Source: Lachnospiraceae bacterium (GTDB lineage: Bacteria > Bacillota > Clostridia > Lachnospirales > Lachnospiraceae). From it: DNA of 64,000 nt. The stretch is taken from positions 62,001-126,000 of the forward strand of contig CAJTBO010000003.1 in assembly GCA_910573755.1 (NCBI GenBank), given 5' to 3'. Made by a program: the position numbers and the translations under genes. Positions 39,858 through 64,000 of the stretch are shown one piece after another (the first letter of the stretch is position 1; every line of letters begins with the position of its first letter). Under the pieces are notes generated by a model. It was given only the letters and a program-made list of their open reading frames with translations. It had not been told where the DNA came from and did not search any database.

Positions 39858-41495
39858 TTACAAAAGACTGCCCTTTTTAACCACCGTATTTTTCTCCTCG
39901 TTATTGCCCGGTGAACAGTCTTTTGCCCGGATAACAAAATAATATGTCACCCCTTTATCTAAACCCTTAATGATCGATTGATACGGATAAGTCTCAAAAG
40001 CCGCTCCATAGCCATAGCCCTTTCCTGTCTCCGGGCATAATTCTATCTGCTGCGCCCTCTCAAGATCCGGGTCCTTCTCAAAATCGAACGGCGTACTCTG
40101 ATAGTATAGTGTGTATATCACGCCGCTTTTATCCACCGCAACGTCCCAGCGCACGATTATTCCATCCTCCGTCAGTTCAACCTCTCCTATGCCTGTTCTC
40201 GGTACCGGCTCCTGCTTTGGATACTCTTCCGAATTATTATGAACGCTGCTCCAGACAGGCGGCAAAATATCATCCGCTTCGTTGTGTTCCAGTACAAAAT
40301 CATTTACCAATGTCAAACTTCCGTCTGTTATATAATGGGAAAATCCCGCCTTATCCTGTGCCTGCACGATGTCCTCCATAAGCACATCAAATCCGGCCGC
40401 AGCCGTATTTCCTGATAACGCGCTCTTCAACCCGAGCTCTTCAGGGCCTTCCGCATATCCAAGCGACAACACCTTAAATCCGTCCGGGCGGTTTGCCTCC
40501 GCACTGATCTTCGGCGCATAAACATTTTTATTATCGGCAAAAAAATCCTCTTTATATGTCCTTGCCGGATCGGAATCCAGCATGTAACTTTCAAATAATA
40601 AAAAATCTATATATTTCCGCGGTGAAAATTCATAATGAGGATAATAATAATTATAAAAAAACAGCCCTCTGTTCTGCAGAATATACTTATCCGGATACTC
40701 CTCTTTCAACCTCTGCATAAACCGCGCCACCCCCGGAGCTGTCCATTCAAACCTTGTCCTGCACGGGTCGTCATCTCTTGTAAACAGATCGGGCGCACAT
40801 GTATCGATCGTATCAAGAAACAATCCGTCGCAGCCAAGCCCTCTGCCATAATCCTCCGTAAGGATCTCCCGGATTCCAGCCACCTGATCCGTGCCGTCCT
40901 TTTGCATTTGATTCAGTTCATCATACCACGCCGGATCCCCTATATTAGTATAAGCACAATTAAAAGAGGGATTAAAATCCGGCATGCCGTCATAATCATT
41001 ATCATCTAAATAATAGGACGCAAACCCGCTTCCTCCCGGTGATGTCCTTCCCGATATATCATCGCCCTCAAGATCAGCCAGTCCTGCATTCTCAGGAGCA
41101 ACCCGCGGCCCAGTTTTATCTCCGGTAAACCTTATATCCGTCAGCATCTGTTCCGGGGTCATACCGTTTGTCCTCAGGTCTTCACCGACAGAAAGATACC
41201 CGAAAACAATCGTTCCCCCTTTCTGAATCGCCTCCACCTGCTGCCGGGTAATATTTCCGGAATCCGGATGCAGAATTACTATATCATACCGCCTTGCATC
41301 CTTAATGATCGAATCATCCAATTCCCCGTAATAAATCATATAGGTCTGCCGGATATTATTTTCCGGCTTTTTTACAGGAAATGCCGATTCCCAGAATATA
41401 TGCCCGAAATCATATATTAAAAAAAGTATTACCATAACTGTACATGCCTTTTGAAAGCCTCTGCTTTTAATATATTTTTTTAATTTTTCTATCAT
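39858..41495 (-). CDS. GH114/PelA-hydrolase-like glycosidase with C-terminal FN3-like domain
   Basis: A 545-residue membrane-anchored or exported protein. A hydrophobic helix lies at about residues 18-38. A TIM-barrel domain (about 50-340) resembles GH114 endo-alpha-1,4-polygalactosaminidases and the related GH166 domain of PelA: TYMIYYGELDDSIIKDARRY, IVFGYLSVGEDLRTNG, AYTNIGDPAWYDELNQMQ and GCDGLFLDTIDTC, with Asp223 and Asp228 as candidate active-site residues. An FN3-like beta domain (about 425-535, VRWDVAVDKSGVIYTLYYQS, then GVTYYFVIRAKDCS) follows. In Pseudomonas the PelA hydrolase cuts Pel. Here the hydrolase is separate and lies 17 kb from pelG, at the far end of the block. It would trim or release the polymer, or free stuck chains. 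Confidence 0.82.
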   Translation of the reverse strand: MIEKLKKYIKSRGFQKACTVMVILFLIYDFGHIFWESAFPVKKPENNIRQTYMIYYGELDDSIIKDARRYDIVILHPDSGNITRQQVEAIQKGGTIVFGYLSVGEDLRTNGMTPEQMLTDIRFTGDKTGPRVAPENAGLADLEGDDISGRTSPGGSGFASYYLDDNDYDGMPDFNPSFNCAYTNIGDPAWYDELNQMQKDGTDQVAGIREILTEDYGRGLGCDGLFLDTIDTCAPDLFTRDDDPCRTRFEWTAPGVARFMQRLKEEYPDKYILQNRGLFFYNYYYPHYEFSPRKYIDFLLFESYMLDSDPARTYKEDFFADNKNVYAPKISAEANRPDGFKVLSLGYAEGPEELGLKSALSGNTAAAGFDVLMEDIVQAQDKAGFSHYITDGSLTLVNDFVLEHNEADDILPPVWSSVHNNSEEYPKQEPVPRTGIGEVELTEDGIIVRWDVAVDKSGVIYTLYYQSTPFDFEKDPDLERAQQIELCPETGKGYGYGAAFETYPYQSIIKGLDKGVTYYFVIRAKDCSPGNNEEKNTVVKKGSLL

Positions 41496-42622: not shown

Positions 42623-43669
42623 TTACCTGACTTTATACAAAACAACATAGCTTAACCTGCATATAAAATTTACTGCCATATAATTTTTCCGGTTAAAAAA
42701 ATGCAGCAATATCCTTCTCGGAATAATCCCGCTTTTTTCACTGTACCGGTATGCCGATCGATATATTTCATTGTTATGTATCTCATGGCACAGTTTACGG
42801 TTTTCCTCATATGTCCTTGTGCTGCGGGGATTAAAAATGCCATATACCAGAACTTCCGTCACGGCTGTCAGTATGTTTTCATAATACGCCCTCTCCAGAT
42901 CCCCCCAAATTTTATTCTCCTGCAAAAGCATTTTCAGCCTTTTCTGGAACATATAATAATTTTTTACATACTGCGGCTGAAAGCGATGGGTCAGTGAATC
43001 CCCCCGCCATTCCACAAAATATACCGTCCGGGGAATATAAACACAGGATTTTGCCCTGAGCTGGTATTCCACATTAAAAAGCTTATCTTCACCAATAAAA
43101 ACATCCTGAGAAAATCTTATCGCATAACGATCCAAAACCGCTTTTTTATATGCCTTGGCACAGGGCGAGCGCAAATTCGTATTACCGTTCTTTGTCAAAG
43201 GTTTTGCATACAGTATTTTTTTAATCATCCGGACCGAATTTGCCCTTTTACCGATTTTTATTATCCGGGCATTTCCTGTAATTTTTGATCTTCTGCCGGA
43301 TTTTAATCTCTTTTTTCGTTCCGTATGATCAAAGATCAGCATATCCTGCTTCTGATATTCCCGCCTTGTAACAATCTCTAAAAAATCATGGGAAATCGTA
43401 TCATCGGAATCCACAAATATGATCCATTCTCCCCTGCTTACTTCTATTCCTTTGTTTCTGGCTGCAGAAACTCCCGCATTTTCCTGATCATATAATTTAA
43501 CCCTTGGATCTTTCCTGCAGTAACGCCTGCATATCTCCCCGCTTCGATCCGTTGAGCCGTCATTGATCAAAATAACTTCAAAATCATTAATGGTGCAGTT
43601 CAAAATCGAATCTATACACCGCCCCAGATATTTTTCTGTATTGTATACCGGTATAATAACGGAAATCAT
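42623..43669 (-). CDS. Glycosyltransferase family 2
   Basis: A 348-residue GT2. MISVIIPVYNTEKYLGRCID, EVILINDGSTDRSGEICRRY and GEWIIFVDSDDTISHDFLEI show the GT-A core, with the metal motif as DSDD. The C-terminal acceptor part is basic and Tyr-rich (YRSAYRYSEKSGIIPRRILL), suggesting membrane contact. It shares the first 110 residues' pattern with its neighbours but differs beyond, so it probably uses another acceptor. Donor and linkage are unknown. Confidence 0.92.
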   Translation of the reverse strand: MISVIIPVYNTEKYLGRCIDSILNCTINDFEVILINDGSTDRSGEICRRYCRKDPRVKLYDQENAGVSAARNKGIEVSRGEWIIFVDSDDTISHDFLEIVTRREYQKQDMLIFDHTERKKRLKSGRRSKITGNARIIKIGKRANSVRMIKKILYAKPLTKNGNTNLRSPCAKAYKKAVLDRYAIRFSQDVFIGEDKLFNVEYQLRAKSCVYIPRTVYFVEWRGDSLTHRFQPQYVKNYYMFQKRLKMLLQENKIWGDLERAYYENILTAVTEVLVYGIFNPRSTRTYEENRKLCHEIHNNEIYRSAYRYSEKSGIIPRRILLHFFNRKNYMAVNFICRLSYVVLYKVR

Positions 43670-52777: not shown

Positions 52778-54205
52778 TCAAAACCAGCCGTTTTTCTCTA
52801 TTGTTCCGATATGATAGCCATACTCTTCCGGATCCTGCTGATTCGCCAGAAGTATCTGCTCTCCGCTGTCCGGACGGGTGATGAAAAAAAATACTTCGTA
52901 TTTCCCGCGAGGCAGTTTATCGACAGGGATATTCACCGTAACGGTCAATTCTCTTTCTGATTCGCTGCCCCCTGAAAGGCTGCGCAGATCGCCTTTCATT
53001 TCATACGACCGGCAGATTCCCTGTTCCCTGTCATAAAGAACCAGTCCCATGACGGGTTTTACATAAACCGGCGCAAAACCGGCATTTTTCAAAGTGACGC
53101 CCGCTTCTATGCACCGCCCGGAAACATTGTGATCAAGATCAGCCTTCCGGATCAGCAGACGGTAGCCTAAATGGCGCTCAATATACGTATATCCGTCCAT
53201 ACCATAAAAGCAGCCCTCCTCCATGACCGTTGTCTCTCTCCATTTTTCCAGCACTTCCAGATCATGTCCTTCATTCAGATAAGTGACATGCATTGCGCCC
53301 AGATCCCTGATGGCATTTTCCAGATCGTTATATTGATTATCATGGATCACTTCCCCTCCGTTGGGAACCCGCCGGCAAAGCCGGTCCTGAAAGTCCAGTT
53401 CCTCCTTCCGGGTTGAAAATTCTTCTCCGCTGCTTTTCAGTATTTCATAAGTGCCATAATCACTTTCATTTCCAAGCATACCGTCGTTAAACAGACTGAG
53501 CCTTCCCGCAAACGGATGTGCCGCAAGAACATCTTCCGATATCTTCTCAATCCCGGTGATGCTTCTCCATTGGGCAGGCGTTCTGACCGCCAGATAAACA
53601 GAGGGCTCTGTTATGCCGCTTAACTTCTCCGCCAGCCTGCACAGATCCTCCTTTTCCGAATAGCTTGTGCCGTTCATTTCTCCCCAGTTGCCGGTAAACA
53701 ATCCCTGTATAACAAAGATCTGATCACCCGCCCTGCTCAGTATCTCTTCCATCTGTTCCATATGCTTCAGGATAATATCGATCGTTTCCGGTTCATAAAC
53801 TTCATTTTCTCCGTCCCAGTCATACAGAAAACGGATGATCAGCCGTTTATCTATGTTATCCAGCGCCTGAAACAGAGCCCTTATATTTTCCATGCCCTTT
53901 CCGCTGATTTCCTTATCCCTATAATTCTGCAGATTGATCTCGATCAGCGACAGGCCTTCTTTTTCATCTCCGTCATACAACTCCCTGACAAGTTCCCCGT
54001 AATCCGTTTCCTCATCGGTTATCATAAATCGATAAATTTTATAAAACCCTCTGTCAGTATTTGGCAGTTCCCGCGCGGATTCCGTAAATTGACAGCTTTC
54101 CATTTTGATATTTCCCCGATAACAGCGTACTGCGGCAAAAGATAACATTACCGTCAGTCCGGCAGACAGTACAAAGCAAATTCTTTTTCTACCAGTCTTG
54201 TGCAT
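52778..54205 (-). CDS. DUF4874/DUF4832 exported protein
   Basis: A 475-residue exported or membrane-anchored protein. A hydrophobic segment (about residues 8-27) is followed by a barrel-like DUF4874 region (RELPNTDRGFYKIYRF, then DKRLIIRFLYDWDGENEVYE, then IFVIQGLFTGNWGEMNGTSY). A DUF4832 domain follows (EVIHDNQYNDLENAIRDLGA, then HVTYLNEGHDLEVLEKW, then ERHLGYRLLIRKADLD and a beta-sandwich end). DUF4832 proteins often neighbour polysaccharide genes and have a glycoside-hydrolase-like barrel. Its catalytic residues cannot be assigned. It sits 1 bp from the GT2/DUF2304 gene, suggesting a joint role, perhaps cutting or sensing polymer outside the membrane. Confidence 0.85.
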   Translation of the reverse strand: MHKTGRKRICFVLSAGLTVMLSFAAVRCYRGNIKMESCQFTESARELPNTDRGFYKIYRFMITDEETDYGELVRELYDGDEKEGLSLIEINLQNYRDKEISGKGMENIRALFQALDNIDKRLIIRFLYDWDGENEVYEPETIDIILKHMEQMEEILSRAGDQIFVIQGLFTGNWGEMNGTSYSEKEDLCRLAEKLSGITEPSVYLAVRTPAQWRSITGIEKISEDVLAAHPFAGRLSLFNDGMLGNESDYGTYEILKSSGEEFSTRKEELDFQDRLCRRVPNGGEVIHDNQYNDLENAIRDLGAMHVTYLNEGHDLEVLEKWRETTVMEEGCFYGMDGYTYIERHLGYRLLIRKADLDHNVSGRCIEAGVTLKNAGFAPVYVKPVMGLVLYDREQGICRSYEMKGDLRSLSGGSESERELTVTVNIPVDKLPRGKYEVFFFITRPDSGEQILLANQQDPEEYGYHIGTIEKNGWF

Positions 54206-55322: not shown

Positions 55323-56765
55323 TCAGTCCGGCTTCCGGTAGACCAGATCGGAAGGCTTCTTTCCTTTGCCGCGCTTTAAAAGCTGCCATTTACAGAATAT
55401 ATTTCTGTCCAAATGCTTCTCCACCCAGCGCAGTCTGGCGTATGCGATCGTCCAGCCCGTAAACGCACCAAGAAGCACCCCCAGCCCATACCAGATTTCT
55501 GACAGCTGCATCGCGGCAACGCTTCCCAGAAAAGTGACAAGGCAGAAACCCGCCGTAGTCATTACCGCCCCCGCCAGATCATTGTAATAATAGAGAAAAA
55601 GGATCGCCGCATACATCAAAAACAATATAAAATAACCTGCCGCCATACACGGATATATCCGCATGACCATTCCGCCGAGCCCGAACCGTGGCAAAAGCAC
55701 GATACAGAGCAGAAAAACCACCACGGAAATAATAAACTGGACGCGTACAAGACCCATCAGTTCATTGGAGATCGAGCGGAACATACGCCTTTTTGCGTTG
55801 TCTATATCCGCTTTTTTCCCCCCGATCACAGATTCGGAATAAACTTTGTATTTTTCATGAAAATGCATCTCGATCCGCGCAATAAAGATGACCGTTGCCG
55901 AGATATTGGTAAACATGGCAATACAGGTCGCCATATCATAGGGCTGATTACATACAAAACTTTTGACAACTACTATTCTCATATCGCTGGTCCAGAATAC
56001 AAAATTATGGATATACAGCCCCAGTATGTAAAAAAAGTTGGCGAATACCAGCTGCCACCATTTCCCAAAATATTTCAGCACTTCCTTATATCGGTTACTG
56101 TTTTTCACAAAATATCTTTTTATCGTGGCAAATTCCATTACCGCGGTCAGAAAAAAACCGACCATCAGGGAAAACAGCATACTGATCATTACTTCCCAGT
56201 GAAAGATAAAATGCAGGATCAGTGAAAGAACAAATGTCACTATCATCCCGATCAGAAAAAAGACAGAAATTTTCTGATAATCCTTACAGACAGAAAGATA
56301 GATCATGGAGTAAAAAACCAGTACCAGGGAAATATAGCCGCTGAATCCCGTAAATACATAAAATACATTTACACCCCCGATAAAATGCTCCCAGAGACAG
56401 AACGGAATGCCAAACAGGCAGCTGAACACGATATTAAAGGCAAGCCCCAGATAATAGCAGGGCAGAATATCCTGATAGCGCTCCTCGAAAATAGCATCCG
56501 ACATATACTTTGACAATACGGCATTAAACGGAGACGCCGTCAGCAAAGCAAAAATAAAGATATATAATACCGTACAAAAAAATACCTCCCTTGCCAGATA
56601 TTCCGATCTGTTCAGCCCCAGCACCCATCCCATCAATACGATAGCCGATATGACCAGTATCATCGGGGCCACTGTGGCAACTGTGCTGTAAGTGAATCCG
56701 ATCAGGTTGGCAAAAACGGATTTTTTCTCAAATATACGGTTTAATTTTACGCCGATACCCGCCAT
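55323..56765 (-). CDS. pelG: PelG, exopolysaccharide export protein
   Basis: A 480-residue membrane protein with about twelve helices, homologous to PelG, the inner-membrane partner that moves the Pel polymer made by PelF. The N-terminus MAGIGVKLNRIFEKKSVFAN, then GFTYSTVATVAPMI, is characteristic. Other conserved blocks include FNAVLSKYMSDAIFEERYQD, WQLVFANFFYILGLYIHNFV and TIAYARLRWVEKHLDRNIFC. PelG belongs to the MOP flippase-like superfamily. pelF lies 4 bp before it, so the two are translated together, as in Pseudomonas and the Gram-positive pel operons. No outer-membrane PelB/PelC is needed or seen. Confidence 0.94.
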   Translation of the reverse strand: MAGIGVKLNRIFEKKSVFANLIGFTYSTVATVAPMILVISAIVLMGWVLGLNRSEYLAREVFFCTVLYIFIFALLTASPFNAVLSKYMSDAIFEERYQDILPCYYLGLAFNIVFSCLFGIPFCLWEHFIGGVNVFYVFTGFSGYISLVLVFYSMIYLSVCKDYQKISVFFLIGMIVTFVLSLILHFIFHWEVMISMLFSLMVGFFLTAVMEFATIKRYFVKNSNRYKEVLKYFGKWWQLVFANFFYILGLYIHNFVFWTSDMRIVVVKSFVCNQPYDMATCIAMFTNISATVIFIARIEMHFHEKYKVYSESVIGGKKADIDNAKRRMFRSISNELMGLVRVQFIISVVVFLLCIVLLPRFGLGGMVMRIYPCMAAGYFILFLMYAAILFLYYYNDLAGAVMTTAGFCLVTFLGSVAAMQLSEIWYGLGVLLGAFTGWTIAYARLRWVEKHLDRNIFCKWQLLKRGKGKKPSDLVYRKPD

Positions 56766-56769
56766 AGCC

Positions 56770-58299
56770 TTACACCTCCGCCGTCTTTTCTTCCGGCTGT
56801 CGTTTCAAAAATTCTTTATCATTCATTTCTTCCGCCGCATTCTGCTCCGGAATTTCCATATTTTCATCCTGCCAGACCTTTCCCATACTTTCCGCAAATT
56901 CTTTATAAATCTTTCCGTAGCGGTTCAACATGCCCTCCATCCGGTATAACGCGCAGACCCTTCTGTATCCGTTCTCTCCCATTTTATGACGTTTCCGTTC
57001 ATCCTGCGCCAGTGTCAGGATGGCATGTGTAATTTCCCCGACATTCATGATATGGGTAATGATCCCCGCCTCGCCGAAATGATCCTCTCCGCCGTTCCCC
57101 AGAATCAGTCCGCGGCAGTCTCCTACATCTGTAGCGATCACCGGTTTATGCGCCGCAAAACTTTCCAGAATCACAAGCGGCTGCCCCTCACTGATACTGC
57201 TCAGGATCATCATATCCATCTTCCCATAGTATTCCTGTACATCTATCTTTCCTGTAAATACAATGCCGGAGATTCCCATGATCCCTACCATATCAAAACA
57301 TTCCTGGGCGTATTCATCCTCCGCTTCCAGAGGACCCATGATCCATAACTTCAGCCTGGGGTCCTGTTCTTTTGCAAAACCGAACGCCTGAATCAATGTT
57401 TTTACATCCTTGATCGGCGCCACCCGCAATACTGCACCGATATATATCTCCTCCCTCTCTGTCTCGGTTTTGCCCAGAAGGCCCTGAAACCTTTCTATCT
57501 GTACCCCGTTTGGCACCACCATCGTCTTCTCCACGGGACACTCCAGTTCCGCCTGCAGTTCTCGTGCCTTCTCATACAGACTGGTGACAAGGTCTCCCCT
57601 GTCATATGCCATCTTGGACATTTTATGAAACTGCTCGATCCAGATATTTTTGTAGATGCCCTTCACCCATTTGGACTGGATCAGTTCTTCTTCCCGCTCT
57701 CTGGTATAAATACCATGTTCCGATATCATAAGGCGGCCGCCGTGGATATGTTTTCCCATACAGCCGAGTACCCCCGCATATCCGGTACAAAGACAGTGAT
57801 AGGCGTCCGCCTTCGGGATCTTCATCTGCAATGCCCGAAACAGCGGCAGATAAATGGAACGCATTGTCCATAAAAAGTCCGTAAATATGATCTGACTATA
57901 GTGCATCATATAAAATTCCGTAACCGCATGCAGAAAATCTTCACCCATCAGCAGATCATTCAGGGAACGCTTTTTTTTCTGGAAAAAATCGATCAGTTCT
58001 TCCCATTCGATCCTGTCTCCCAGCATCAGACTGCGCAGAGCCTGATATTCTCTTTTGTTCATCCGGCTCTTCCTTTTTCTCTGTCTGCACCAGTCCAGGT
58101 CATCCAGATAAAGTTCATGCAGTTCTACCACATTCTCCGGCAGTTCATATACAAATTTTCCCCGCAGCTCTCTGTTTGCCACAATCGTCAGGATAACAAA
58201 TTCCTGATGGGGAAAAGAACGTATCAGGCCATGCGCCCAACTGGACATCCCGCCTACTACATACGGGTAACATCCTTCTGCTATTATACATATCCTCAT
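56770..58299 (-). CDS. pelF: PelF, GT4 polymerising glycosyltransferase
   Basis: A 509-residue cytoplasmic GT4 that polymerises UDP-GalNAc/GlcNAc-type donors into Pel. The start MRICIIAEGCYPYVVGGMSS followed by WAHGLI matches PelF. Conserved segments are RLMISEHGIYTREREEELIQ, TMVVPNGVQIERFQ, EIYIGAVLRVAPIKDVKTLI and SSISEGQPLVILESFAAHKP with the E-x7-E motif. The C-terminal 50 residues (MGKVWQDENMEIPEQNAAEE...) form an acidic tail that is longer than usual. GGTGGGA precedes the ATG. It lies between the PelA-type gene and pelG in canonical order. Confidence 0.95.
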   Translation of the reverse strand: MRICIIAEGCYPYVVGGMSSWAHGLIRSFPHQEFVILTIVANRELRGKFVYELPENVVELHELYLDDLDWCRQRKRKSRMNKREYQALRSLMLGDRIEWEELIDFFQKKKRSLNDLLMGEDFLHAVTEFYMMHYSQIIFTDFLWTMRSIYLPLFRALQMKIPKADAYHCLCTGYAGVLGCMGKHIHGGRLMISEHGIYTREREEELIQSKWVKGIYKNIWIEQFHKMSKMAYDRGDLVTSLYEKARELQAELECPVEKTMVVPNGVQIERFQGLLGKTETEREEIYIGAVLRVAPIKDVKTLIQAFGFAKEQDPRLKLWIMGPLEAEDEYAQECFDMVGIMGISGIVFTGKIDVQEYYGKMDMMILSSISEGQPLVILESFAAHKPVIATDVGDCRGLILGNGGEDHFGEAGIITHIMNVGEITHAILTLAQDERKRHKMGENGYRRVCALYRMEGMLNRYGKIYKEFAESMGKVWQDENMEIPEQNAAEEMNDKEFLKRQPEEKTAEV

Positions 58300-58324: not shown

Positions 58325-60151
58325 CTAATATGCGCTCTTCAATGTGATCACAACATTTCCCTGCTCTGCCATGATCAGGTAAACATCTTCCTCCAGTTCC
58401 TGCCAACTGCCGCCCTCCATGCTTTCTATCATCTCATGTCCCGTCCTCAATACAAACCATACAGGCCCTTTTGTATCATTACATTCCAGACGGATCGTAT
58501 TGAACTCTCTGCTTTCCTTATAATCCAGCGCAAGGAACCTGCGAATCCTTATATCACACTCTGATACGGTCGTACTGTCAAATCCGTATCTCCTGACAGG
58601 ATGATCCCGGAGATTCTGCCACAGCGTATTGGAGACAAATGTCCAGTCCCTCTCTTCCCGCTCCGGATACACGATGTCTTTCATATCCACCATGACACTG
58701 TTGTATCCCAGCGCTGTCTCCAGACACCTGATCCTGAAATCATATCTGCCCGTTTCTTCAAACCCGTCAATTATCACACTCTGTCTGGTGACATACTCTG
58801 AAAGATACCCTATCACTTCCTTATCGTCATCAGGGCTTTCGACCACTGTCCGCACCGATCCGAGCAGCTTCTCCCGCAGGGCATCCATTACCTCTTCCTC
58901 TGTCAGCCCATCCGCATAAAAGGAAGTAAACTGATACGTCGGCAGTTCCCTCTGCATAAATTCATGATCCTTTGCCAGCTTTTTTTCTATCGGCGTTTCG
59001 GATATCCGTGCCCCGGACAAACCGGTCTCCGCCCTTTGTTCGTTCAAAAGTTTCATATAGCGCTGAAACTGATCCCCGTTGGGCTCATGTTCGTCCTCAT
59101 AATCAAACTGAGGGGCAAGCATACAGGTCAGCGAAAGCCCGTTATCCCGGCGGACAGCCACCAGATCAGGCCACATAACATTCTGGAACAGCCCCTCCAG
59201 AGACTGGCTGTAGTGTTCCTCCAAAAATTCTTCGTTTTCATCCGCCAGCCCGGGATAATTGGCATAGATCATATTCTGCGCGTTGACTACCGGATAGATC
59301 TCATAGGGATTCATCTTTGCCGATATCGCAGACAGTATCCCCAGACCTGCCACATCCTCCATACAGCTTCCGTTCACGGCAAAAACAGCAGCGCTTCCGG
59401 CATCTTTTTTCCATATAACGGCGGGAAGTTCCCGTTCTTCCACAGGCTCCGTTCCCAGATCCTGTTTTTTCGGAATGCCGTTCATATAAATCTCACTTTC
59501 CGAAGATACTACATACCACGGAAACGTATACTCTATTCCTTCCTCCTTCTCCTCTGCCGTATAAAAGGCCTCTCCGCCCAGCAAAAATCCCTGATGCAGA
59601 TAAACTTCCCCCATCGGCATTTCCCCGGCCCTGACCGTTTCAATCCCCAGCAGGGTTTTCAGCCGCGGGCTGTCCTCTATCACAGATACCTCCGGCAGAT
59701 TACAAAACACAAGATTTATTCCCGTCTCCACATATTTTTCTAAAAGAGCGCAATTTTCCTCACCGCCCCAGTCAATATCGCTCGAATCAACCATTATTAC
59801 GGCGGGAAGGGCCTGATCCTTCCCTTCTTTCGAATCCTCATATTCCTCCGGCGACAGATAAGTTTTAAGCCTTCTTTTTGTATAGGAGGCCCAAAGTGAT
59901 ACCGTTTTCCTGAGATCCCCCTCTTTTCCGATATAGACAACGGTTTCTCTCACATCACCCGCAAAATCCTCTGCACCGGTGTCCTCCGCATGAAAAGAAT
60001 CACTGTTCTGCGGAATTTCCGATATGTCTGTTATATAAGAATTTTCTTCATAATGATTCCAGCTTTCCAGTGCAACATTCGAAAACTGGAACAGAAAAAA
60101 AACGATAAACATCACAATGGTGATGGTTAAATAATTTCGGCGTGTTATCAT
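58325..60151 (-). CDS. DUF2194 protein in the PelA-deacetylase position
   Basis: A 608-residue membrane-anchored outer protein; an N-terminal helix lies at about residues 8-28. It occupies the place of the PelA deacetylase gene in the Gram-positive order D-E-A-F-G. The protein matches the DUF2194 type: VVYIGKEGDLRKTVSLWASY, VMVDSSDIDWGGEENCALLE, then SLTCMLAPQFDYEDEHEPNG. A polysaccharide deacetylase (NodB) would have TFDDG and HSxTH motifs; neither is visible, although QFDYED could be a relic. The C-terminus (about 480-608) is a beta-rich region, possibly a carbohydrate-binding module. It may bind polymer without deacetylating it. If so, the product may be less cationic than typical Pel. Confidence 0.8.
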   Translation of the reverse strand: MITRRNYLTITIVMFIVFFLFQFSNVALESWNHYEENSYITDISEIPQNSDSFHAEDTGAEDFAGDVRETVVYIGKEGDLRKTVSLWASYTKRRLKTYLSPEEYEDSKEGKDQALPAVIMVDSSDIDWGGEENCALLEKYVETGINLVFCNLPEVSVIEDSPRLKTLLGIETVRAGEMPMGEVYLHQGFLLGGEAFYTAEEKEEGIEYTFPWYVVSSESEIYMNGIPKKQDLGTEPVEERELPAVIWKKDAGSAAVFAVNGSCMEDVAGLGILSAISAKMNPYEIYPVVNAQNMIYANYPGLADENEEFLEEHYSQSLEGLFQNVMWPDLVAVRRDNGLSLTCMLAPQFDYEDEHEPNGDQFQRYMKLLNEQRAETGLSGARISETPIEKKLAKDHEFMQRELPTYQFTSFYADGLTEEEVMDALREKLLGSVRTVVESPDDDKEVIGYLSEYVTRQSVIIDGFEETGRYDFRIRCLETALGYNSVMVDMKDIVYPEREERDWTFVSNTLWQNLRDHPVRRYGFDSTTVSECDIRIRRFLALDYKESREFNTIRLECNDTKGPVWFVLRTGHEMIESMEGGSWQELEEDVYLIMAEQGNVVITLKSAY

Positions 60152-60176: not shown

Positions 60177-61136
60177 TTAACTGAAAATCCTGATCAGTTC
60201 CAAAGTCTCATTATCGATCACAACATCCGATTTTTTCAACGCCTCAAGCGTCTGAAAAAACGCCTCCCTGTTTCTGACGGTAAAATACAATTTCAGCTTA
60301 CAGGTATAAGATGAAAGCTGATCCGGATACTGCTTTGCCAGCCGCATACACCATTTTTCCGAATTTTCATAATCTTTGATCTCAAGCAGCCTCAGACACA
60401 CCCCCTCATATTGCTGCTGAGTCATTCCGGAAGGATTTTTGGCATAAAAAGATTCCGCCGCCTCGATCATCATCTTAACAAACCTGTTTTGTTCCAGCTG
60501 CGTAAAAACCTTCTGTTTTAAAATTTTATCCGTATAATTGATCATGGTATCTTCGTATTCTGTCTGATCATCCTTTTCTTCCCTGATACCCAAATACAGT
60601 TTTTGTACTTCTATACGGAATTCATTCAGTTCATGGCTCAAAACAGCTGCCGCATAATGTGAAGATTCGGAATCCTTTGTCTCCAGCGCCAAAGAAATCG
60701 CAGACAAAGAATCTTTTATCTCCCCCTTCAGCACGTTCAGCATCGCCGTCCGCAGGCTCTTACGGTCATTGACTGCGATTGCCTCCTCCAGAGGGATCAC
60801 ATTCATTTCCCTTTCCTCATCCGCTTTCAGCTGGGTCCTTACACGTCCCTTGCTGAACATTACGTCATCCAGTTCCACCTGAAATCTGAAAACAGTCAGA
60901 TAAAACAGATGTACCATAAAGAAAAACAGCGGGCCGACCACCGGGCACAGCAGCATAACAATAAACCGCAGGAGACAGGTTCTCCGGTTGTCATGCAGGC
61001 GTTCATCCTCCCCCTCTCTTTTTCTGTTGCGGACAGGAACGACAAACAGGATGCTGATCAGAAAATAAAGGACTGCTATTATTGTATTGACCAGAACAAC
61101 TATGAGAAAAATATACTCATCCCTCGACAGGCTCAT
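60177..61136 (-). CDS. pelE: PelE-like membrane protein with TPR-type tail
   Basis: A protein of about 319 residues in the pelE position. Two membrane helices lie at about residues 8-32 and 55-80 (IVVLVNTIIAVLYFLISILF and LLCPVVGPLFFFMVHLFYLT). The cytoplasmic remainder consists of helices resembling tetratricopeptide repeats (EDTMINYTDKILKQKVFTQL, MIEAAESFYAKNPSG, LEIKDYENSEKWCMRLAKQY). PelE links PelD with PelG and PelF in the inner-membrane complex. The start MSLSRDEY has GGGGGAG 4 nt away and overlaps the pelD stop by 20 bp. A 26-codon longer frame is unlikely. Identification rests on place, topology and TPR shape. Confidence 0.82.
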   Translation of the reverse strand: MSLSRDEYIFLIVVLVNTIIAVLYFLISILFVVPVRNRKREGEDERLHDNRRTCLLRFIVMLLCPVVGPLFFFMVHLFYLTVFRFQVELDDVMFSKGRVRTQLKADEEREMNVIPLEEAIAVNDRKSLRTAMLNVLKGEIKDSLSAISLALETKDSESSHYAAAVLSHELNEFRIEVQKLYLGIREEKDDQTEYEDTMINYTDKILKQKVFTQLEQNRFVKMMIEAAESFYAKNPSGMTQQQYEGVCLRLLEIKDYENSEKWCMRLAKQYPDQLSSYTCKLKLYFTVRNREAFFQTLEALKKSDVVIDNETLELIRIFS

Positions 61137-63306
61137 TCTTCTCCCCCTCTCTGAGTCTGCAGTCATAACCGGCGCTCCGGAAGCGTTCCGCCACACCCTC
61201 CGCATTTTTTTCATCCGTATTGGAAAGCAGGATATAGAATCCGCCGTCGCTTAAAAGTCCCATATAATCTGTCTGACGTATATTTTTCCCCAGTATCTCC
61301 GATGCTTTTTTATAATCTTCCGCGGGAATTTCAATCATGGCACATTCCGTAAGACCATCCTCTTTTGCCCTGAAAAACGCACCTGTCAATTCTTCAAAAG
61401 CGTCCGCCGCCATGACCCTGGTCCCGTCCAGATACCGTCCGTGCGTAAGCGTATCCAGATACCGGTTGGCGTGCACCACCGCGCTCTGGATCAAAGAACC
61501 GATGATCGTCAGGCGGTTTGCTTCCGAAAGCGTCATGCGCTGCCACGGAATTCCCCAGATCATCAGCATCAGTTCCATTTTTTCCTCTGTGTATACGGCG
61601 CTCGCCATCAGCGGAAGTTTCTCATCCATCTTTTTATTGATGAATACACGCCGTTCCTTCAGATCCTGATACAGATCCTCCATATCCGTATATTTAATGG
61701 AATTTCCCAGTCTCTTTGCCTCCGGAGATGTAAAGGAAAACAATCTGGCATAATCTCCGTTTGCCACCATATAGACAGCGACATCCCTGCTGTCCATCAG
61801 TTGTCCCAGCACCTTTGCCGCATAGAACAGTACTTCTTCCGGTTCATAAGCCTCCAGACTGGAAGTGATCTCATAAATTTTTCCGAGGCTGTCACGCTGG
61901 TTGACAAGCTGTGTCTCAAAACTCTGCTTCATTCTGACATTACTGTCGTTGATATCCGATATATCATCTACTTTTCTGCTTAAATACTGTATCTCTTCCT
62001 CATTCTCTTCTCTGATAAACTGCAGCTGGTCGCGCATGTAACCGACGATCATACCAATGATAAACAGCTGGGCCATCCAGACATAGATATTATAATCCAG
62101 CAATACCTCAAATCCCGTCCTGCCGTACATCTGCTGCAGGAAATAGCCTGCCACGGCAAGAAGGGACGAAAAAATCGCCTGTTGCTGCCCGTATATGATA
62201 GCAAACAGCAGAACATACAGTAAAAAGAAATCCAGCCTGTTAAAATACTGACTGTCAGCCGCCTTGCTGTTCAAAATATAAAAAGGAATAAAACAGATCA
62301 GATTTTCAACAAACGGAAACAGCCGTTTAAAGATAACTTTGATACCGTGCCAGATCCTTCCCGCCCTGCTGCCTCCGGCATCCTCATCACGGATAAAGGA
62401 ATCCGCGTTCCGCTTCATATATCCGGCAACCTGTTCTGCCCCCTCCTGATAATGAACAAATATCTTCTGTCCAAACTCTTCCTGAAAAGACTTCCCGTCC
62501 AGCATCAGGCGGTATTTTTCTCCCACCGAATTATTGACCAGACGGATACCTCCTCCCATCGTTTTGATGATTGCCTCTGCCAGCTGTACCTCATTTATCT
62601 CTTCCATAGAAGAAATATGGTAACGCGATAATGCCGGGCGCTCTTCCATCATCACCTTATACGCCAGTTCTACCGCATCATTCAAAAAGAGCATAGAAAA
62701 TGATCTTCTGTCATTGGCAGATATTCTGCCTGTCTTCAGTGCCTCCAGACACATCTGAAAGCACGGGCCGCTCTCTTCCCTGCCCTTGTCCGGCACACCG
62801 TAGAGATGGTCAAAACGCAGGATCATGATATCCATTCCCTGTGCTCTTTGATAATTTTCGCAAACCTCTTCTCCCTGCGCCACCGCGATCGCTTTAAATC
62901 CTTTCGGCGATACGGCCTCTGTTTCCGCTACATCGTTAGGATACGACATACCGTACACTTCATGAGAAGAAAAATAAACAAAACGCCCTTTTCCTGTCAT
63001 CGAATACGTTGACAGAACATTCATCAGCGATGCCGTATACCTTACCGACTCCTGCCTTTCCCTGTGCCAGTCAAAATTGGTGTCATACGCGCCCATATAT
63101 ATAACCATTTCCGGCTGAACGCTCTCAAAAATATCCTTAACGCTCTCGTCCTCATAAGAATAATCATATCTCTCAAAAACATGCTTGTAGGAAAACCGGC
63201 GATCCCTGCGGCCTGTCAGCAAAAAAATCCTGTGCTTCCCTTTATTCAGCTTATCGATCACAGCATCGGTCATTCTGCTGCTGCCGCCGATTAATAATAC
63301 ATTCAT
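61117..63306 (-). CDS. pelD: PelD-like c-di-GMP receptor with N-terminal SDR-fold domain
   Basis: A 729-residue inner-membrane protein. Residues 1-300 form an extended SDR (NAD-dependent epimerase-like) domain, yet MNVLLIGGSSRMTDAVI departs from GxxGxxG and the Tyr-x3-Lys pair is missing (FKAIAVAQGE is at that place), so catalysis is unlikely. Residues about 330-425 are four membrane helices, followed by a coiled linker, a GAF domain (about 470-620) and a degenerate GGDEF domain (about 625-720). The GGDEF site reads SDGGFYIL, but RQTD at 677-680 keeps the RxxD inhibitory-site pattern that binds c-di-GMP in PelD. So polymer export may be switched by c-di-GMP. AAAGGGG precedes the ATG. Confidence 0.9.
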   Translation of the reverse strand: MNVLLIGGSSRMTDAVIDKLNKGKHRIFLLTGRRDRRFSYKHVFERYDYSYEDESVKDIFESVQPEMVIYMGAYDTNFDWHRERQESVRYTASLMNVLSTYSMTGKGRFVYFSSHEVYGMSYPNDVAETEAVSPKGFKAIAVAQGEEVCENYQRAQGMDIMILRFDHLYGVPDKGREESGPCFQMCLEALKTGRISANDRRSFSMLFLNDAVELAYKVMMEERPALSRYHISSMEEINEVQLAEAIIKTMGGGIRLVNNSVGEKYRLMLDGKSFQEEFGQKIFVHYQEGAEQVAGYMKRNADSFIRDEDAGGSRAGRIWHGIKVIFKRLFPFVENLICFIPFYILNSKAADSQYFNRLDFFLLYVLLFAIIYGQQQAIFSSLLAVAGYFLQQMYGRTGFEVLLDYNIYVWMAQLFIIGMIVGYMRDQLQFIREENEEEIQYLSRKVDDISDINDSNVRMKQSFETQLVNQRDSLGKIYEITSSLEAYEPEEVLFYAAKVLGQLMDSRDVAVYMVANGDYARLFSFTSPEAKRLGNSIKYTDMEDLYQDLKERRVFINKKMDEKLPLMASAVYTEEKMELMLMIWGIPWQRMTLSEANRLTIIGSLIQSAVVHANRYLDTLTHGRYLDGTRVMAADAFEELTGAFFRAKEDGLTECAMIEIPAEDYKKASEILGKNIRQTDYMGLLSDGGFYILLSNTDEKNAEGVAERFRSAGYDCRLREGEKNEPVEG

Positions 63307-63342: not shown

Positions 63343-63747
63343 TCAGCGGCACCGATACATCAATTCCACCATGTCGCTGATCTCCGCGAAATCTTCCTCA
63401 TCCTCCGCATCAAACCATGTCTGCTTTCCGATCAGTATGTATGGCGCATAAGTACTCAGCTCCAGCAATACCTCCCCTGCCGCTTTTTCTGACATATCTG
63501 TCATAATTGTAATACGGCTGTTCTCCATAGTACGCAAAAACAGATTTCCTTCCAGATCTTTTGTGATATCCGTAATCCCCGGTTCTGTCACCATGCCGGT
63601 TTCCCTGTCATAACTTCTGATCCCTGCCATGACCAGATCCCGGTAGGGAATTTCATACCTGTCCTGTTGAAGGTCTGTAATCTTAATGCACTTTTTGGTA
63701 AAGCGGATCCTCTTTGCTCTTAATACAATATTTGAATGTTTTTCCAT
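63343..63747 (-). CDS. Small cytoplasmic protein heading the pel block
   Basis: A protein of about 134 residues that I do not recognise. It has mixed beta strands in the first half (IVLRAKRIRFTKKCIKITDL, then YRDLVMAGIRSYDRETG, then NLFLRTMENSRITIMTDM) and an acidic C-terminal helix. The pattern suggests a small PH-like or beta-barrel regulatory fold, but this is not certain. There are no membrane segments. The ATG at 63747 is preferred over a GTG three codons earlier. It is 37 bp before pelD and about 90 bp from the predicted promoter, so it is the first gene of the block. A regulator or assembly factor for PelD is possible. Confidence 0.7.
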   Translation of the reverse strand: MEKHSNIVLRAKRIRFTKKCIKITDLQQDRYEIPYRDLVMAGIRSYDRETGMVTEPGITDITKDLEGNLFLRTMENSRITIMTDMSEKAAGEVLLELSTYAPYILIGKQTWFDAEDEEDFAEISDMVELMYRCR

Positions 63748-63785
63748 TCCCGGCACACTCCCACTTTATGCAGACAGTATAAAAA

Positions 63786-63812
63786 TGACGCAAAGGTTCA
63801 TACTCTGCGACA
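63786..63812. other. Left recombination-site-like element of a possible invertible promoter
   Basis: Two 10-bp arms, TGACGCAAAG and CTCTGCGACA, are inverted repeats matching at 8 of 10 positions, around a 7-bp spacer GTTCATA. This is the geometry of a tyrosine-recombinase crossover site. In the leader RNA it could also fold as a hairpin, and it could be an operator. Its right part is repeated in inverted form at the window end. Confidence 0.45.
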
Positions 63813-63838
63813 AGGATAATAATATTTTTACTTTTAAC

Positions 63839-63867
63839 ATTATATCTGTTGACGGGGAGTTTTGCAA
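63839..63867 (-). promoter_or_regulatory. Strong promoter driving the pel block
   Basis: On the minus strand TTGCAA and TATAAT are exactly 17 bp apart. The first gene starts about 92 bp beyond the -10 box. No stronger promoter was seen nearer, although TTGCGT and CATAAA (17 bp apart, around 63765-63793) form a weaker second option. Confidence 0.8.
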
Positions 63868-63988
63868 CAGCTTGTGTGGAAAATTTCAGGGCTGCACAGA
63901 TAAAGCGTGATAAAAATTATATATTTTTGAAAAAAAGCTTCCGTATCTGCCGGATTTTTTGGATAAGGCCTGATCGATCAGCTAAAAA

Positions 63989-64000
63989 TGTCGCAGAGTA
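63989..64000. repeat. Inverted copy of the left 12-bp element, cut by the window end
   Basis: TGTCGCAGAGTA is the exact reverse complement of TACTCTGCGACA at 63801-63812. The 176 bp between the copies hold the pel promoter. The repeat reaches the last base of the window, so its true length is unknown. Confidence 0.75.

Follow-up and report, generated by a model that had tools for sequence, protein, structure and literature searches.

We infer from the sequence that the pel operon of this Lachnospiraceae bacterium very probably lies behind an invertible, phase-variable promoter, which stands in the ON orientation in this assembly. The operon is found in a 64,000-nucleotide stretch of DNA, the whole of which is called the window here (C3:62001-126000 of a 4.88-Mb, 87-contig assembly, 95% complete). 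The features of the window, and those of a second locus on contig C21, are as follows.

52778..54205, minus strand: gene for a DUF4832/DUF4874 protein, from domain matches
55323..56765, minus strand: pelG, exporter (PF16933, E 3.3e-147)
56770..58299, minus strand: pelF, glycosyltransferase (NF038011, 365.7 bits against a cut-off of 100)
58325..60151, minus strand: gene for a DUF2194 protein at the place of the PelA deacetylase, assigned by position
60177..61214, minus strand: gene at the place of pelE, 345 aa, assigned by position only
61117..63306, minus strand: pelD-like gene, 729 aa, with an N-terminal epimerase-type domain
63343..63756, minus strand: S137 gene (our label), the first of the pel operon, 137 aa
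63781..63812, minus strand: putative operon-proximal recombination site, with a 27-bp core at 63786-63812 that reads, outward, TGTCGCAGAG-TATGAAC-CTTTGCGTCA
63813..63988, no strand: putative invertible segment, 176 bp, between the inverted 27-bp sites
63839..63867, minus strand: sigma-A-type promoter, TTGCAA-17-TATAAT, facing the operon (ON), its -10 element ending 26 bp from the proximal site
63989..64000, plus strand: first 12 bp of the putative distal recombination site, which runs on to 64015 (the repeat to 64020) beyond the window
C21 7048-7074 and 8171-8197: two further copies of the site, flanking the P0001 gene
C21:7096-8031, minus strand: P0001, a 311-aa tyrosine recombinase (Phage_integrase match)

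The operon follows the Gram-positive pel gene order, pelD, pelE, pelA-type, pelF and pelG, with pelE and pelA placed by position only, and we take it to be a Gram-positive pel locus, for which Pel synthesis is predicted from the genes. It shares with the pelDEADAFG loci the epimerase-type N-terminus that clostridial PelD carries, pelF, pelG and an accessory gene of the DUF4832 kind that accompanies clostridial pel loci, and differs in that an S137 gene and the invertible promoter precede pelD (as far as the excerpted text of PMC7112168 describes those loci).

The sequence-only reading that raised the possibility of a switch had placed exact 12-bp inverted repeats at 63801-63812 and 63989-64000 around the segment 63813-63988, the left copy belonging to a 27-bp element at 63786-63812, and all of these are present as described. 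It had also predicted how the right copy, cut off by the window edge, would continue, namely with TGAAC and an arm like CTTTGCGTCA. The actual bases come close: the completed copy, from 63989 to 64015, reads TGTCGCAGAG-TATGAAC-ATCTGCGACA. The repeat reaches far past 12 bp, to 32 bp with 29/32 matching when the flanks are included, and scores 23; when the 620-bp region was dinucleotide-shuffled 300 times, the highest score reached was 13. Both inner arms of the two sites are identical, as are the 7-bp centres, and the outer arms differ at three positions. The locus therefore has the makeup of an inverton, with inverted repeats flanking a promoter-bearing segment. An Rfam search of the switch region gave seven matches, every one below its gathering score. 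A second inverted repeat in the window (40962-40984 and 43294-43316, 21/23, 2.3 kb apart) is unexplained.

When the pel-type site was sought throughout the assembly with up to three mismatches, exactly four copies were found, and the reversed control pattern gave none. Two of the four surround the pel promoter and the other two surround the P0001 gene. Residues R145, K183, H254, R257 and H280 of P0001 are invariant across seven aligned recombinases, and among solved structures P0001 is matched best by chains that bear the name Int protein. The first gene of the operon at C21 encodes a 135-aa paralogue of the pel-operon S137 (50% identical); after it come genes for a BTAD regulator, a 134-aa protein and a 1312-aa protein containing DUF11 repeats. 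A scan of genome_contigs with P0001 returned one close relative and two distant ones at 24-25% identity; viral_contigs held no match to P0001 and none to the site. The close relative comes from a [Clostridium] symbiosum MAG (L034, apparently the same locus as contig C38 of genome G004), where a recombinase 80% identical to P0001 sits between two sites; beyond it lie an S137 gene and, by the ORF list, more genes, among them those for a signal peptidase and SpaA-type pilins. Surface-protein operons behind a switch that encloses a recombinase gene occupy L030 882-8197 and L034 9817-20495.

From these features we infer that the pel segment would flip, that P0001 would be the pel enzyme and that transcription would follow orientation. 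In the proposed mechanism, a tyrosine recombinase would bind the 10-bp arms of both inverted 27-bp sites and exchange strands within the identical 7-bp centres, so flipping the 176-bp segment. In the ON state the promoter would read through the proximal site into S137-pelD-pelE-pelA-pelF-pelG, and in the OFF state its transcript would end at the distal site, where a T-run comes after a near-perfect hairpin. The enzyme would most likely be P0001, supplied from its own site-flanked segment before the surface-protein operon on C21 and acting on pel in trans.

Switches with related sites, which we call type A, occur at five loci: pel and C21 in this genome, C38 of G004, C11 of G021 and C3 of G008. 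In all five the site reads outward from the segment as inner arm, 7-bp centre and outer arm. Both sites of a pair share the same centre (5/5), with four different centres overall; within pairs, inner arms differ at zero or one position and outer arms at one to three. Strand exchange would demand matching centres and would let the inner halves swap ends while the outer halves stay anchored, and matched centres, near-identical inner arms and divergent outer arms are what exchange within the centre predicts. The G021 switch (L062 7014-9115) lacks S137, its first gene encoding a 289-aa protein and the next a BTAD regulator.

The same comparison bears on whether pel carries a relic of a P0001-type switch that is now locked ON. 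The relic reading would account for the lack of an adjacent recombinase and for outer arms that differ at three positions, yet the outer arms differ at three positions in G021 too, where a recombinase lies inside the switch. Moreover, the inner arms and the centres at pel are both identical, and a recombinase gene that is open and still flanked by matching sites remains in the genome; we consider a locked relic decidedly improbable and an invertible segment the better account.

The sequence-only reading had called the promoter strong. TTGCAA-17-TATAAT is indeed present on the minus strand at 63867-63839, but its occurrence is unremarkable by count (1 found against 2.4 expected), promoter-like sites being no commoner than in shuffles. 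Because counts show no excess, the weight of the promoter derives from its conserved place in related switches: in 5/5 type A switches, 25-27 bp separate the end of a TTGC[ACG]A-17-TATAAT promoter from a site. The promoter points toward the operon at pel only (ON) and away from it in the other four (OFF). Across 11 switches, judged by the best-scoring promoter, the ON orientation is seen at two, the pel and C4 switches of this genome, and the OFF orientation at nine. The proximal site is separated from the 137-aa ORF by 29 bp, a gap in which a second promoter would hardly fit, and the promoter scan detected none in it.

Comparative evidence for flipping of such segments comes from a second site family of this genome (TGTAGACAGAATTCACATTCTGTCTACA-like, type B), found at C17 and C4, where each switch adjoins a recombinase of another branch than P0001. 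The C4 switch has a counterpart on C4 of G004 (L059 9346-10305 in this genome, G000; L065 7971-8936 in G004), and the genes behind it in both genomes encode S137, a GGDEF diguanylate cyclase and a BTAD regulator; the two recombinases are 87% identical. Aligned between the genomes, the segments score 120 inverted against 14 direct (shuffles, 10.7 ± 1.4), and the flanks keep the same orientation, with direct scores of 24 and 51. The promoter accordingly faces the operon in one genome and away from it in the other: the C4 switch is inverted between two species. Within this genome, the C17 and C4 segments score 97 inverted and 12 direct. Control of Pel by c-di-GMP has been described (in the excerpted text of PMC7112168), and with C4 ON here, c-di-GMP made from the C4 operon might also act on PelD. 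Two type B switches (L058 6999-7280 and L063 7201-7488) precede S137 genes in operons that also encode a protein of 388-430 aa, in L058 a BTAD protein, and a large protein of about 1830-1870 aa, for which the copy in this genome matches no Pfam family.

For the pel segment itself, the best comparison is with the C38 switch of G004, a related locus and not an orthologue, at 30 inverted and 18 direct (shuffles, 11.6 ± 1.2). This was the only one of nine pel-segment comparisons to exceed six standard deviations. Against the pel segment, a type B switch unrelated to it scores 21 in reverse, and the sequence kinship is accordingly thin. All three type A switches with the recombinase gene inside share a single orientation, and orthologues therefore do not show type A inversion. 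In the one-genome-per-species sets searched, no second genome carried this pel switch, and homologous switches alone showed the opposite state.

The sites are palindromic, and this raised the alternative that the repeats are paired repressor operators or mere terminator hairpins that are not recombined. The sequence-only reading had noted a weak hairpin with a T-run at 63940-63960, which a terminator scan did not flag; the stronger terminator-like hairpin is the right-hand (distal) site itself. In four of the five type A switches the outer arm contains GCGTCA at the operon-proximal site and GCGACA at the distal one, and in the same four the proximal hairpin is the weaker (-6.1 to -11.7 against -13.8 to -15.7 kcal/mol; at pel, -9.1 against -14.0). 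The exception is G008, with -13.3 kcal/mol proximally and -7.9 distally. Among the eight bases that follow, six or seven are T at the distal site in 5/5 switches, and at the proximal site two to four are T in four switches and six at pel. The distal site, with its hairpin and T-run, probably doubles as an OFF-state terminator, and ON transcripts of pel might be partly stopped at the proximal hairpin and its T-run.

A good terminator at the distal copy is thus what the operator or terminator alternative would expect, but in four of the five type A switches the proximal copy has the weaker hairpin, and in four it has few T after it, so terminator function does not account for both. Nor would that alternative explain inverted pairs with pair-specific, asymmetric centres, placed around or beside recombinase genes, or a type B switch that is inverted between species with collinear flanks. 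On these grounds we rejected a plain operator or terminator reading, which is extremely improbable. The invertible-promoter reading, in turn, is supported by the extended right copy, by a site-flanked tyrosine recombinase and by homologous promoters that are oppositely oriented in related switches.

Which recombinase would act at pel was approached through the gene content of the genome. The window was said to lack a recombinase gene, and this holds for genes resembling four query tyrosine recombinases, none of which occurs in the window or onward to C3:140000. The expectation that one might lie just beyond the window was right in kind and wrong in place: a site-flanked tyrosine recombinase exists, but on C21. 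Serine recombinases gave no match on C3 and 20 elsewhere in the genome, and 22 further stretches resemble P0001, some of them maybe pieces of one gene.

With so many candidates, none of them beside pel, and with the pel and C21 centres one base apart (TATGAAC and TGTGAAC), the pel segment could be invertible and yet be flipped by a recombinase other than P0001. We regard this as unlikely, since within three mismatches the same arms occur at the P0001 locus only, and the two type B recombinases, at C17 and C4, adjoin a different site family. Given that the pel segment flips, P0001 is likely its recombinase, favoured because its locus alone shares the arms. The one-base difference between the centres should discourage recombination between the two loci.

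Action in trans has a precedent in G008. There the locus that corresponds to C21 (ATPase 86%, BTAD regulator 67% and next protein 76% identical) has a 227-bp promoter-only switch with no recombinase gene nearby. The sole P0001 relative in G008 at E <= 1e-60 (61% identical) is encoded some 135 kb from this switch, on the contig that carries it, and adjoins one degenerate site-like sequence.

The small protein S137, which matches no Pfam or NCBIfam family, accompanies many of these switches. We found 14 S137 genes, four in this genome, four in G004, three in G345, two in G357 and one in G221; among sampled genomes of the family, S137 is present in 4 of 397, this genome included. An inverted-repeat pair lies upstream of all 13 testable members, as found with a score threshold stepped down from 16 to 14 to 10; the G221 gene, which starts 42 bases from a contig end, was left out of this count. 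Scores run from 13 to 31 for the 11 S137 genes whose switches are short, the weakest being that on C25 of G345 (17/19, score 13). As a control, 400 random 600-bp stretches yielded nine that score at least 13, all nine overlapping known switches, and the 391 switch-free stretches reach at most 11. A recombinase lies inside or beside the switch for 12 of the 13 genes, the exception being the pel locus of the window. The recombinase on C39 of G345 (L066 6130-6677) is in two overlapping pieces in different frames, and that switch may therefore be frozen. S137 is not obligatory, because G021 and G008 have type A switches and no S137 match. An AlphaFold2 model of S137 built from two sequences was poor (mean pLDDT 60.8; the other four, 33.9-39.6) and was not used to assign a fold; a Foldseek search with the S137 model returned nothing at E <= 0.001.

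Other pel loci were compared with that of the window. A different pel operon in G004 (PelG 28% identical, PelF, DUF2194), headed by an S137 gene, lies behind a type B switch with an adjacent recombinase, in the OFF orientation; taken with the pel operon of the window, it suggests that Pel has come under such switches at least twice. On C88 of G004 (L064 2556-3986 and 8020-10200), the PelG match has one TGA inside and the place of PelD is taken by two ORFs of 258 and 448 aa, reflecting either draft error or decay. At the pel loci of G005 and G008 (PelG 55-56% identical), the best repeats upstream of the ORF at the pelD place score 11 and 9, within the random range (up to 11), the G008 region extending about 450 bp to a contig end. 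With no switch-like repeat found at these two loci, pel operons of the genus do not as a rule have the switch.

These observations led us to a broader and more tentative reading, in which exchangeable cassettes, each made of a site pair, a promoter, S137 and with or without a recombinase, may have taken over surface operons repeatedly. S137 would then perhaps be a working part, and one recombinase could couple a matrix sugar and a surface protein stochastically. The operons so captured would possibly include those for pilus-like proteins, BTAD regulators, a diguanylate cyclase and, at least twice and with two site families, pel. S137 might, for instance, feed back on the recombinase or gate the operon.

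Promoter inversion itself is known. In Bacteroides fragilis it involves the Mpi recombinase, and to our knowledge Pel is not among the inversion targets of that species. Those inversions, at distant loci, likewise concern promoters for capsular polysaccharides and other surface products (excerpted text of PMC4747536), in another phylum and with another promoter type. The closest mechanism is that of the flg, cmr and pdcB switches of C. difficile, in which short promoter segments are flipped by site-specific recombination; in the excerpted text of PMC9286219, flg and cmr both depend on the one recombinase RecV, and the pdcB switch, 174 bp between imperfect 19-bp repeats, is given with its recombinase not identified there. 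The C. difficile systems, likened here by mechanism, have other targets; in the present genome the switch of the likely recombinase encloses its gene, and an S137-headed pel operon is the target at a distance.

Inverton group 139 of the hCom2 community is also similar by description, as opposed to repeat sequence: it is mostly clostridial, is linked to a tyrosine recombinase group and shifts orientation in culture, with examples of 26- and 14-bp repeats around segments of 205 and 227 bp, and no pel target is named in the excerpted text of PMC11892184. Phase variation, sought as a term, does not occur in PMC7112168. Among the matches listed from open-access papers, none described a phase-variable pel promoter, and the searched terms were absent from the Streptococcus intermedius Pel paper. 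A Pseudomonas review considered as prior art had matched through unrelated passages and was dropped. What is new here is pel as a target, a probable recombinase encoded far from it within a switch of its own, and the S137 family that goes with such switches.

As a matrix sugar of biofilms Pel is widespread, and accounts of its control centre on c-di-GMP and transcription factors. A DNA switch before pel would make its production an all-or-none, heritable choice of the single cell in a gut anaerobe, and a shared recombinase would tie Pel to a surface-protein operon. S137, in turn, offers a handle for finding more such switches in Lachnospiraceae.
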